64,000 nucleotides of DNA from Candidatus Saccharimonadota bacterium (GTDB taxonomy: Bacteria > Patescibacteriota > Saccharimonadia > Saccharimonadales > Saccharimonadaceae). A model generated the notes under the pieces. It saw only the letters and a program-made list of their open reading frames with translations. It was not told where the DNA came from and made no database searches. The stretch covers positions 316,696-380,695 of the forward strand of contig JAPLYU010000001.1 in the NCBI GenBank assembly GCA_026395405.1. The letters are read 5' to 3'. Position 1 is the first letter of the stretch; each line of letters starts with the position of its first letter. A program made the translations under genes and the position numbers. Positions 3,747 through 9,172 of this stretch are shown piece by piece.

Positions 3747-3777
3747 ATGTGGTTTTTTTCAAGCATCTGGTTGTCAT

Positions 3778-3832
3778 TTCGCTTATTTGAATGCGTATTC
3801 AAACTGATGAGTCCAAAAGGATGAAAAGCGAA
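3778..3832 (+). ncRNA. Type III hammerhead ribozyme HHR1
   Basis: Stem III TTCGCTT/AAGCGAA; H17 = A3785; stem I TTTGAAT-GCGT-ATTCAAA; core CTGATGA; stem II GTCC-AAAA-GGAT; GAAA. Predicted cleavage 3785/3786. Confidence 0.93.
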
Positions 3833-3911: not shown

Positions 3912-3987
3912 TGACAAGCAGACATTATTTTCATGGGGTGGGATTTTTTAATTTAACGAAAGTTTAGTTTTAAAATCCTATCCTATG
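3912..3987 (+). ncRNA. Cassette C2 structured leader
   Basis: 5' arm TGACAAGCAGAC pairs with 5190-5200; 16-bp hairpin CATGGGGTGGGATTTT / AAAATCCTATCCTATG. Confidence 0.7.
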
Positions 3988-5120: not shown

Positions 5121-5201
5121 TTCTCCCAAGCGGTGACAGGCAGTCGTTCAGATGAATGACGCCCGCCCCGTCATTCTGTTTCTCTGCGCGTCTGCCTGTC
5201 T

Positions 5202-5256
5202 TTCGCTTTTTTGAATGCGTATTCAAACTGATGAGTCCAAAAGGACGAAAAGCGAA
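5202..5256 (+). ncRNA. Type III hammerhead ribozyme HHR2
   Basis: TTCGCTT / AAGCGAA stem III; H17 = T5209; stem I TTTGAAT-GCGT-ATTCAAA; CTGATGA; GTCC-AAAA-GGAC; GAAA. Confidence 0.93.
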
Positions 5257-5303: not shown

Positions 5304-5385
5304 ATAGATAAGCATCGTGTGAGGTTTTTTAAGCACTCCGCGACGCACCTGACAACTCGTTCAAGCACCCCGAAAGGAGCCTGCT

Positions 5386-5840: not shown

Positions 5841-5895
5841 CTTGCGGGGATGAACGAGTTGTCAAACTCAATGATTTATAAACTAGTGATTATCT

Positions 5896-5924: not shown

Positions 5925-6104
5925 TTTAGAGAATGCGGGTGAGAATTGCCCAGAATGGCAGTTCGCAAGGCCGGAGCCCGGATGACGAACGTCACTGAGT
6001 GAGGCGGGGCTGCGAAAAATTCGGAAGGAATTTTATCGTAGCTAGCTCAGTTAACGTCTCATCCGCAGACAGGCGTCCTTTATTAACAATATTCACACAT
6101 CTAT

Positions 6105-6180
6105 GCGGGTGTAGCTCAGTTGTTAGAGCGCTTCCTTGCCAAGGAAGAGGTCAGGAGTTAGAGTCTCCTTACCCGCACCA
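6105..6180 (+). tRNA. tRNA-Gly (GCC)
   Basis: Cloverleaf, anticodon loop TTGCCAA, encoded CCA; unusual T-loop TTAGAGT. Confidence 0.93.
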
Positions 6181-6199
6181 AACCATTAGCATTATAGTA
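6160..6199 (+). repeat. 40-bp direct repeat copy 1 (tRNA-Gly 3' end), att-like
   Basis: AGAGTCTCCTTACCCGCACCAAACCATTAGCATTATAGTA; second copy at 7304-7343 with one mismatch. Confidence 0.8.
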
Positions 6200-6223
6200 C
6201 GTTAACGGAATATATTCGGAAAT

Positions 6224-6994
6224 ATGGGTAAGCGACTGAGAGTTGTTAGTGATCCTTCTAAGGACGTCGGCCACGAGGCAGGTGCGGTTATTGAGTTTAT
6301 GCAACCTTCCGAAACTCAACTCGGCTCGGTGCTAACAAAACGGCAGATGCACTGGGAACATCACGCCGATGCAGTTACTCAGGCGTACAACAAACTGGAC
6401 TATTTTCAAAACAAGATCTTGCTCACAAAACCAGACACAGGAAACTATCGTCACATAAGAGACGATCGTATATTGGGCAAAATCTATATCTCAGGCTCCG
6501 ACCTGGTCAATCACACTTATCTTCTATATAGGCATCTTTCGCACTGGATTATTTCAACAGTACATGTATGGCCGGATAGCACCCAGGCAGATAAAGACGT
6601 GATGGCCCACTTTGAAAGTAGAACAATTGATTATGAATCACCACTAAATTATGTCGTAAAGGACATCCTAAAGAGAGAAGATTTATTCCAACACAAAGGC
6701 TACGCGTTTATTACTGGAGAGTGGAAGGAAATACGACACGCGCTTTATCATCCAACGCATCAGAATATATATAATTCCTCTCTTGATTTATGGGATAAAG
6801 TTCCAATCGCATGGTTCACGTCTGGGAAGTTCAGAGACCAATACAAAGAAATTGTAGCTTTTCACAATGAACTGATTGAGGGATGGTGTAGTTTACTGCC
6901 CAATTACAAGCGACCTGGCAATATTACAATTACCCATATTGGGGCTACGTCAGAATACCCTTCACAAATCAAGAAGGCTCGGGCCAAGAAGTAG
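6224..6994 (+). CDS. Uncharacterised 256 aa protein inside the tRNA-Gly direct repeats
   Basis: Long ORF; no family recognised. Confidence 0.6.
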   Translation: MGKRLRVVSDPSKDVGHEAGAVIEFMQPSETQLGSVLTKRQMHWEHHADAVTQAYNKLDYFQNKILLTKPDTGNYRHIRDDRILGKIYISGSDLVNHTYLLYRHLSHWIISTVHVWPDSTQADKDVMAHFESRTIDYESPLNYVVKDILKREDLFQHKGYAFITGEWKEIRHALYHPTHQNIYNSSLDLWDKVPIAWFTSGKFRDQYKEIVAFHNELIEGWCSLLPNYKRPGNITITHIGATSEYPSQIKKARAKK

Positions 6995-7303
6995 TTACGT
7001 CTAAAAGTATTGCACTAAGAGCCGCTTGAGTGTATCGGGCGGATAGCGCAGCTGATATTTCAGTTGGGTTAGGTCGTCGTATGTAATCCCGGATTCGCCG
7101 TCCTGGTTCGAGACTCGTCCACTGTCTTGCACCACGAAATAAACTCACCTGATGGTGAGATTTTTTCGTGGTCTGATATTGGAATTTTCTAACTCCTGAC
7201 CTCAGAGGGAAGGAGTGAGACCCGCAAGCCTGCGGGTCGCAAGGAAACCTTCCGATGGCAACTGGTTTGCCAGTCGTGAAGTTTCGGGCCCGCGGAACGT
7301 GGG

Positions 7304-7343
7304 AGAGTCTCCTTACCCGCACCAAACCATAAGCATTATAGTA
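7304..7343 (+). repeat. 40-bp direct repeat copy 2 (displaced tRNA-Gly 3' end)
   Basis: 39/40 identity to 6160-6199. Confidence 0.8.
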
Positions 7344-7416: not shown

Positions 7417-7445
7417 TTGACGAATCACTATAATTATCGTACAAT
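7417..7445 (+). promoter_or_regulatory. Promoter of cassette C4
   Basis: TTGACG-N17-TACAAT. Confidence 0.7.
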
Positions 7446-7635: not shown

Positions 7636-7974
7636 ATGGTTGAAAGAAGTGGTAGCGACGAGAACAAAGACCCATTTGTGGTACGTTGGGGGACTTACTT
7701 CTACGGTGAAGCGTATCGGTCGGGGTTTGAAATAGACAATTCCGATCCACGGTCTGTCCAGAAGATACACGACGCAAATTACGCAATGCTAGCGTTTTCG
7801 TTGATCGTCTTCCCCGGCATACTGATTGCCTTCATCTTGTTCGTAGTCTTCGCTGGACGTTCACCATGGTGGGCTCTTTTGTGTATGGCGGCTATACCTG
7901 TGTGGTCGGGGCTTGCGATGCTCGTCGGGTGTGTGCTCGAGTGTGTCCACGAGCTTTGTAAACAGCGAAAGTAG
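7636..7974 (+). CDS. Small membrane protein with two predicted TM segments (cassette C4 gene)
   Basis: 112 aa; YAMLAFSLIVFPGILIAFILFVVFA and WWALLCMAAIPVWSGLAMLVGCVL. Confidence 0.65.
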   Translation: MVERSGSDENKDPFVVRWGTYFYGEAYRSGFEIDNSDPRSVQKIHDANYAMLAFSLIVFPGILIAFILFVVFAGRSPWWALLCMAAIPVWSGLAMLVGCVLECVHELCKQRK

Positions 7975-8013: not shown

Positions 8014-8046
8014 GCGGGCTAGTCGCAGATTAGCCCGCTTGCTCTC
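8014..8046 (+). other. Cassette C4 3' hairpin
   Basis: AGCAAGCGGGCTA-gtcgcagat-TAGCCCGCTTGCT, no U-tract. Confidence 0.55.
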
Positions 8047-8080
8047 GCCTCTCTGTATTTGTAAATGTCTGCTTGTTATA

Positions 8081-8133
8081 TCGCTTAAATGAATGCGTAT
8101 TCATTCTGACGAGTCCCAAAGGACGAAAAGCGA
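8081..8133 (+). ncRNA. Type III hammerhead ribozyme HHR3
   Basis: TCGCTT/AGCGA stem III; H17 = A8087; stem I AATGAAT-GCGT-ATTCATT (compensatory change); CTGACGA; GTCC-CAAA-GGAC; GAAA. Confidence 0.92.
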
Positions 8134-8139
8134 ATCAAT

Positions 8140-8337
8140 CTAGGCCAAGAACCTCGAATAGTCTTTTAGCGTTTCGGTCGGGTAGCGCAGGCCGTGCTTT
8201 AGGCAAGTGAGTTCTTCAATCGAAACGCCCTCGGACTCTGTTTTGCGACTCCACTTGCGTACTAATATATTAGGAGCACTAGGGCGACGATTTGGACTTC
8301 TTCTGGTGTTCGAGAGTTGTCCCTTTCCGTGCACCAA
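8140..8337 (-). CDS. Small ORF family, copy B (65 aa), function unknown
   Basis: ELTCLKHGLRYPTETLK tail homologous to the minus-strand ORF at about 7013-7137, with mostly synonymous differences. Confidence 0.45.
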   Translation of the reverse strand: MVHGKGQLSNTRRSPNRRPSAPNILVRKWSRKTESEGVSIEELTCLKHGLRYPTETLKDYSRFLA

Positions 8338-8449: not shown

Positions 8450-8522
8450 ATTGACAAGCAGATATCAATTCACATGGTGGGACCTCTGGATTCAATAGCG
8501 AATTTTGGGGTCTCATCGTGTG
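8450..8522 (+). ncRNA. Cassette C5 structured leader
   Basis: 5' arm ATTGACAAGCAGAT pairs with 9001-9014; 16-bp hairpin CACATGGTGGGACCTC / GGGGTCTCATCGTGTG. Confidence 0.7.
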
Positions 8523-8924: not shown

Positions 8925-9172
8925 TCGTCTCGACACCTTTTCGAAAGGCAGTCTGGTCACAATTCAGACCAGACTGCCTGGCGGCTCTGTGTCATTGATA
9001 ATCTGCTTGTCAATTTTATTTAAAAATTATTTATAAAACTGTTTAATAAAGACTGAAGAAAAACTTATAATTAAATAATATTTTTCTATTTTTGCCAAAT
9101 AGCTTGACTCTGGAAACATAAGGGTATTAAATATAGGCATTAGAGTTTTAAGATAAACATGGGGAAATTAAC

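Follow-up and report, generated by a model that had tools for sequence, protein, structure and literature searches.

The stretch of DNA analysed here (the window, 64,000 nt of an 855 kb genome assembled in four contigs) contains, at 8081–8133 downstream of a short orphan reading frame, a sequence that an earlier note described as a hammerhead ribozyme, which raises the question of what such a ribozyme would do behind a bacterial gene. As read from the sequence, stem III of this element (HHR3) is formed by TCGCTT (8081–8086) and AAGCGA (8128–8133), the H17 position is A8087, and stem I consists of AATGAAT (8088–8094) and ATTCATT (8099–8105) closed by the loop GCGT (8095–8098). The core comprises CTGACGA (8106–8112) and GAA(A) (8125–8128), and stem II is formed by GTCC (8113–8116) and GGAC (8121–8124) with a CAAA loop. 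HHR3 thus has the type III topology, in which the core is surrounded by three stems and stem III is open. It lies on the plus strand like all of the unit features given below, and its cut is predicted at 8087/8088. Two sister copies, HHR1 (3778–3832) and HHR2 (5202–5256), were identified by sequence reading and by their match to the Rfam model, and in both stem I reads TTTGAAT-GCGT-ATTCAAA. Pairs 1.1 and 1.2 of HHR3 are therefore changed from U-A to A-U on both sides relative to its sisters, a compensatory change that the earlier note had reported; its accompanying observations, that position 7 is the sole core difference among the three copies and that the GCGU loop of stem I is identical in all of them, are borne out by the sequence reading. 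The copies differ in addition at H17 (A, U and A in HHR1, HHR2 and HHR3, respectively) and in the stem II loop (CAAA in HHR3, AAAA in HHR1 and HHR2), and stem II of HHR1 closes with a G-U pair.

HHR1–HHR3 align end to end with the Rfam Hammerhead_3 model, with E-values of 1.2e-5, 1.3e-4 and 3.2e-4 and scores of 34.5–39.5 bits, all of which lie below the RF00008 curated cut-off of 48.5 bits. The source genome carries nine hammerhead copies, including these three, and a search at the curated cut-off recovered none of the copies, so that a looser search was required; the best of them, at 43.1 bits, also falls under the 48.5-bit gathering cut-off. HHR3 is classed as a hammerhead by its structure, below curated membership of RF00008, which is a database criterion and not a biochemical definition. 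Judged from its sequence, 8081–8133 is a genuine type III hammerhead for which self-cleavage is predicted, and it belongs to a set of hundreds that the analysis detected in Saccharibacteria and related bacteria.

Whether the fold is under selection was addressed by wide sampling, using RF00008 and then a model (R1) built from the nine own-genome copies. At E ≤ 0.001, a threshold at which the low scorers may include false matches, hammerheads were matched in 73 of the 395 genomes sampled from the family, in 69 of 295 from the order, where a single genome had as many as 16 copies, and in 43 of 384 from the phylum. A strict hammerhead pattern was found at five loci in named genomes, and all loci with a named group belong to Ca. 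Saccharibacteria; outside the named Ca. Saccharibacteria it occurred in one bin labelled "uncultured bacterium", and it had no match in IMG/VR. A looser pattern retrieved 86 viral contigs with type III hammerheads, which served as a control. By themselves, two altered pairs in a single copy out of three are thin evidence. In 96 aligned copies, 94.1% of the whole structure and 98.4% of stem I is paired, with both-sided changes at six of the seven stem I pairs; in 43 further copies, taken from the order and phylum outside the first sample, the values are 95.5% and 99.3%. Covariation over the whole structure is 0.675 in the 96 copies (0.224 ± 0.009 when shuffled), 0.852 in the 43 further copies (0.223 shuffled) and 0.233 in the nine own-genome copies (0.085 shuffled), and the size of these values is inflated because the homologs were gathered with a structure-aware model that favours paired hits. 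The rule at H17 and the results on end pairing described below are independent of that bias: H17 is C, A or U, and never G, in all 136 copies that have a letter at this position. The alignment of further homologs that the earlier note called for thus supports its conclusion of selection on the RNA fold, and the free accumulation of stem I mismatches, which it had held would speak against that conclusion, was seen in neither the 96 nor the 43 copies.

The core is nearly invariant in the 139 copies, with a rare U4C change (7/139) that has been discussed as a weakened yet used hammerhead variant (Perreault et al., PMC3088659). The short loops are partly conserved, as GNGN in stem I and NAAA in stem II, which is compatible with a tertiary contact that may form between the two loops. 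At one locus (L082, 1768–1853, minus strand), a stem II loop of ~35 nt replaces the tetraloop and the core is otherwise intact. Phage contigs commonly carry type III hammerheads with the same core, which occur also in prophages (PMC3088659), so the copies could be decaying prophage relics without present function. This reading has, in our judgement, scarcely any likelihood: the covariation and the intact core extend across tens of genera, the ribozymes keep a constant place ~90 nt after a stop codon (median distance 93 nt), and the architecture to which they belong was not found in the phage copies examined.

That architecture is seen in the HHR3 unit (unit 4). By sequence reading, the unit begins with a sigma-70-like promoter, TTGACG-17 nt-TACAAT, at 7417–7445, which is followed by a leader hairpin, P1 (7455–7480; CUUG-UU bulge-GAGC...GUUC-CAAG), that folds in most leaders as judged by eye and from single folds on a ragged alignment. 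Next come a 5' arm, P2 (7486–7499; TGACAAGCAGATAT), and a second leader hairpin, P3 (7505–7556; CACAAGGUGGG...CUCAUCUUGUG), supported by an RNAalifold analysis of 23 leaders in which 20 of 24 pairs show double changes that keep the pairing. The orphan 112-aa ORF (7636–7974) has no clear Pfam domain, and neither have the other ORFs in the window that precede ribozymes. Between its stop codon and the 3' arm lies a hairpin read from the sequence (8014–8038; GCGGGCTA / TAGCCCGC), and the 3' arm, P2' (8065–8078; ATGTCTGCTTGTTA), abuts HHR3. In a fold of the whole 683-nt transcript, P2 pairs with P2' with a probability of 0.82–1.0, forming a helix between the two ends of the mRNA, here called the clamp. 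The commonest class of unit has the same order from 5' to 3': promoter, P1 with its UU bulge, arm TGACAAGCAGACA, P3, ORF, 3' UTR hairpin, arm TGTCTGCTTGTCA, 0–3 nt and the hammerhead, the two arms being given as the consensus for this class. In 30 of 49 strong clamp loci, a promoter-like site precedes the 5' arm by 15–90 nt, as against 4.6% of random positions, and terminator-like sites within 130 nt before the ribozyme were found at only 2 of 120 loci.

The complementarity between the 15 nt immediately 5' of the hammerhead and the 5' leader of its own transcript is specific to that position. A first, unrestricted helix search was dropped as noisy, and positional and swap tests were used instead; together with the whole-transcript fold, these identify P2' at HHR3. 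Across 92 loci, the excess of complementarity to the far upstream region is +5.07 ± 0.58 for the 15 nt abutting the ribozyme and only −0.1 to +0.8 at 18 other offsets, and in 41 independent order and phylum loci it is +4.07 ± 0.85 at the same position. The signal persists after other hammerheads are masked. When the arms were selected from their consensus, without regard to complementarity, 424 of 520 positions paired with the own partner; with swapped partners the number was 390.7 ± 4.8, and none of 5000 shuffles attained 424. Loci with unrelated arms, scored against the upstream regions of other loci, fell in the top 5% in 19 of 77 cases (p = 6e-9), with the excess at offset 0 only and no clear excess at four other offsets. 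Approximately half of the loci exceed the clamp threshold, which shifted controls exceed in 12–17% of cases. The sequences of the arms vary from locus to locus while their complementarity persists. On these comparisons of sequence, the predicted end pairing is position-specific, replicated in independent families and covarying.

Other units in the window contain comparable arms. Those of unit 1 (2701–2715 and 3762–3776) pair with a probability of 0.81–1.0 in the whole-transcript fold. The arms of unit 2 (3913–3923 and 5190–5200) form 10 of 11 pairs, with one mismatch, and are weak in the whole fold, at a probability of 0.13. Unit 3, which has no ribozyme, shows a perfect 14-bp match between 5350–5363 and 5851–5864 (probability 0.83–1.0), and the matching arm does carry a ribozyme in two other genomes, G156 (L048) and G169 (L051). 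Unit 5, also without a ribozyme, has 13 bp between 8451–8463 and 9001–9013 (probability 0.5–1.0). The clamp probability thus reaches ~1 in units 1, 3, 4 and 5, and in units 1 and 4 the ribozyme is folded in the same ensembles as the clamp. Clamp and ribozyme are separable, since the former is retained in units 3 and 5, which lack the latter.

A helix before the ribozyme is not universal among the loci, and the loci tend, as predicted from sequence, to bear either a clamp or a local hairpin at the ribozyme edge. At family loci the far excess is 6.34 ± 0.70 where there is no local hairpin and 1.8 ± 0.87 where there is one; at order loci the corresponding values are 7.16 ± 1.01 and −0.13 ± 1.77, the latter from only three loci. 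The stricter notion of a local hairpin invariably adjoining the ribozyme was rejected, as such hairpins are commonest ~30 nt upstream. Among the phage hammerheads 69% have a local hairpin, and those without one show no clamp (far excess 0.63 ± 0.59). An apparent clamp signal of +4.19 in the first phage control vanished in the loci without a local hairpin, and arose because palindromic hairpins repeat before tandem phage hammerheads. Such tandem type III hammerheads are frequent in the IMG/VR contigs (L199–L278), where hairpins with palindromic sequence, GTGTCTTCAAAGACAC for example, commonly stand before them. The alternation of clamp and hairpin suggests that the key feature may be a helix at the place where the ribozyme would leave a 3' end, a helix that the Saccharibacteria would often build with the 5' leader.

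The hammerhead anatomy and its covariation, the end pairing, the alternation of clamp and hairpin, the position of the promoter and the scarcity of terminators are computed results and are well supported; cutting in the cell and its effects on stability and translation are what we infer from them. The reading that we favour, and consider fairly probable, is that the ribozyme forms the mRNA 3' end of ORF 7636–7974 and that the clamp between the 5' and 3' ends closes the transcript into a loop and shields the end. Through self-cleavage between 8087 and 8088, HHR3 would generate the 3' end of this mRNA in place of an intrinsic terminator. The 13–17 nt arm 5' of the ribozyme would then pair with the leader arm between promoter and start codon, which would close the mature mRNA into a loop with its 5' and 3' ends in one helix beside hairpins P1 and P3. 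This helix would most probably protect the cut 3' end against exonucleases in the manner of a terminator hairpin, and at loci whose 5' arm overlies the Shine-Dalgarno sequence, translation may also be held down once the transcript is complete. The broader proposal, that hammerheads serve the Saccharibacteria as a general former of mRNA 3' ends, replacing intrinsic terminators behind a shifting set of orphan genes, with the cut end clamped to the 5' leader in a non-covalent closed loop, is advanced tentatively, as a possibility that falls somewhat short of being probable.

The end pairing might instead be mainly a translational switch in the style of S. aureus icaR, in which the 3' end, once formed, folds back over the ribosome-binding region to restrict translation or attract RNase III, and the ribozyme does no more than set that end. 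Pairing of the icaR 3' UTR with the 5' UTR of its own mRNA has been reported (PMC3868564), and the predicted pairing here likewise joins the 3' UTR and 5' UTR of one mRNA. In a subset of loci the 5' arm also contains or abuts a Shine-Dalgarno sequence (TGTAAGGAGAG in L011, L049 and L082, AATCAGGGAGAGAC in L050, and also L091 and L121). We judge this switch to be rather unlikely as the main role, however, as SD-like sequence is present in just 11 of 51 strong 5' arms, the arm of the HHR3 unit does not cover the Shine-Dalgarno sequence and precedes the start codon by ~135 nt, with P3 intervening, and the local hairpins at the same place in clamp-free loci are left unexplained.

The units have a modular genomic setting. 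The genes for tRNA-Phe and tRNA-Gly(gcc) are adjacent in relatives, only 13 nt apart in G175, and are separated in the window by 4.7 kb of clamp and ribozyme units, of which G156 holds a subset; the HHR3 unit sits between tRNA-Gly(gcc) and tRNA-Gly(ccc). Arms of this kind could be terminal inverted repeats of mobile DNA cassettes with the ribozyme as a passenger at the edge, an account that accommodates these modular units between tRNA genes, the recurrence of leaders within the source genome and the ORFs upstream of the ribozymes, which fall into 77 clusters mostly unrelated to one another. It is nevertheless improbable. The promoter lies just outside the left arm and the ribozyme 0–3 nt outside the right arm, so that a unit mobile from arm to arm would lack both, and complementarity is kept despite the differences in arm sequence between loci. 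Non-Watson-Crick pairs are G-U more often than A-C, as expected for RNA, in both P3 (81 vs 16) and P2 (14 vs 7), and the excess in P3 points to RNA and not to DNA inverted repeats. Comparison with phage and plasmid records revealed no relatives of the HHR3 unit. A reverse transcriptase as the mobilising agent was also rejected, as the genome has a single one, a domain match (G000, contig C1, 1453–2103, E 1.9e-43) that lies on a small contig and has no tie to ribozyme units, and several ribozyme-bearing genomes (G132, G080 and G163) have no match to one.

Several further features were observed around the tRNA genes. A conserved stretch of ~100 nt upstream of tRNA-Gly (5934–6039; GCGGGTGAGAATTGCCCAGAATGGCAGTTCGCAAGG...) has partial copies in L012, L190 and L192 and two in L194, partly before tRNA-Phe, and no Rfam match; it is possibly an unnamed structured RNA or a tRNA leader. 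The terminator of tRNA-Gly directly follows the tRNA in G156 (L187, 4464–4539) and is found at ~7150–7200 in the window, a displacement indicating that ~970 bp, containing an orphan ORF of 256 aa, was inserted at the 3' end of the tRNA (6105–7343 region). This tRNA 3' end is copied once more over 40 nt at 7304–7343, with 98% identity to 6160–6199. Two minus-strand frames, 7001–7100 and 8141–8230, share by eye a C-terminal motif (LTQLKYQLRYPPDTLK / LTCLKHGLRYPTETLK), each near a sequence that resembles a tRNA 3' end with terminal GCACCA, and are possibly remnants of integrated elements. Hammerheads also recur in several species 3' of genes that were named by eye as rnhB-like (L059, L114 and L115) and ThiF/E1-like (L072, L073 and L123), so some units hold recognisable genes.

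End pairing would also place the 2',3'-cyclic phosphate left by the ribozyme close to the 5' end, as might suit the making of retrozyme- or viroid-like circular RNAs, a role that hammerheads have in retrozymes (PMC4918200, PMC7761336). Circularisation is very improbable here. RtcB was not found in the 40 genomes searched, the source genome included, in a search that was positive in 9 of 14 control genomes, and ligation by RtcB was rejected on this ground; a 5' triphosphate is to be expected, as every unit is transcribed from a promoter of its own; and the lack of a reverse transcriptase match in the three ribozyme-bearing genomes named above counts against a retrozyme-like cycle. The hammerheads of retrozymes and those described here both lie in repeated genomic units, whereas most loci here have one ribozyme and no flanking pair, RtcB was not found in the 40 genomes, and there is no tie to a reverse transcriptase.

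A search of the open-access literature, with subscription journals and most preprints outside its coverage, yielded no publication that deals with hammerheads in either the Saccharibacteria or the candidate phyla radiation; the ribozyme class is known and the mRNA architecture is apparently new. The many copies, their constant place ~90 nt after the stop and the covarying partner helix together give bacterial hammerheads a concrete, testable role, and if the clamp reading is true, it would represent a new mode of mRNA end formation, a new way to end and close a bacterial mRNA, in a reduced-genome group with little-studied RNA processing. Compared to icaR (PMC3868564), the predicted pairing of 3' and 5' UTRs in one mRNA is common to both and the Shine-Dalgarno sequence is covered at some loci here, but the present pairing involves many unrelated genes, has a ribozyme adjacent and at most loci does not lie over the Shine-Dalgarno sequence. 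With the type III hammerheads of Rfam (RF00008, clan CL00010) the copies share the CUGANGA and GAA core, the H17 rule, three covarying stems and an open stem III; they differ in scoring below the cut-off, in the short GNGN-type loop that caps stem I, and in their position in Patescibacteria mRNA 3' UTRs beside a 5'-3' clamp. Hammerheads in prophages flank genes, and it has been proposed that they divide long transcripts into mRNAs the length of a gene, the gene-flanking copies being listed with their function unsettled (Perreault et al. 2011, PMC3088659). The present copies resemble those of prophages and phages in their position between genes, but in most of the phage copies examined a local hairpin abuts the ribozyme, whereas the present units are each equipped with a promoter and many have a long-range helix with the leader in place of the local hairpin.
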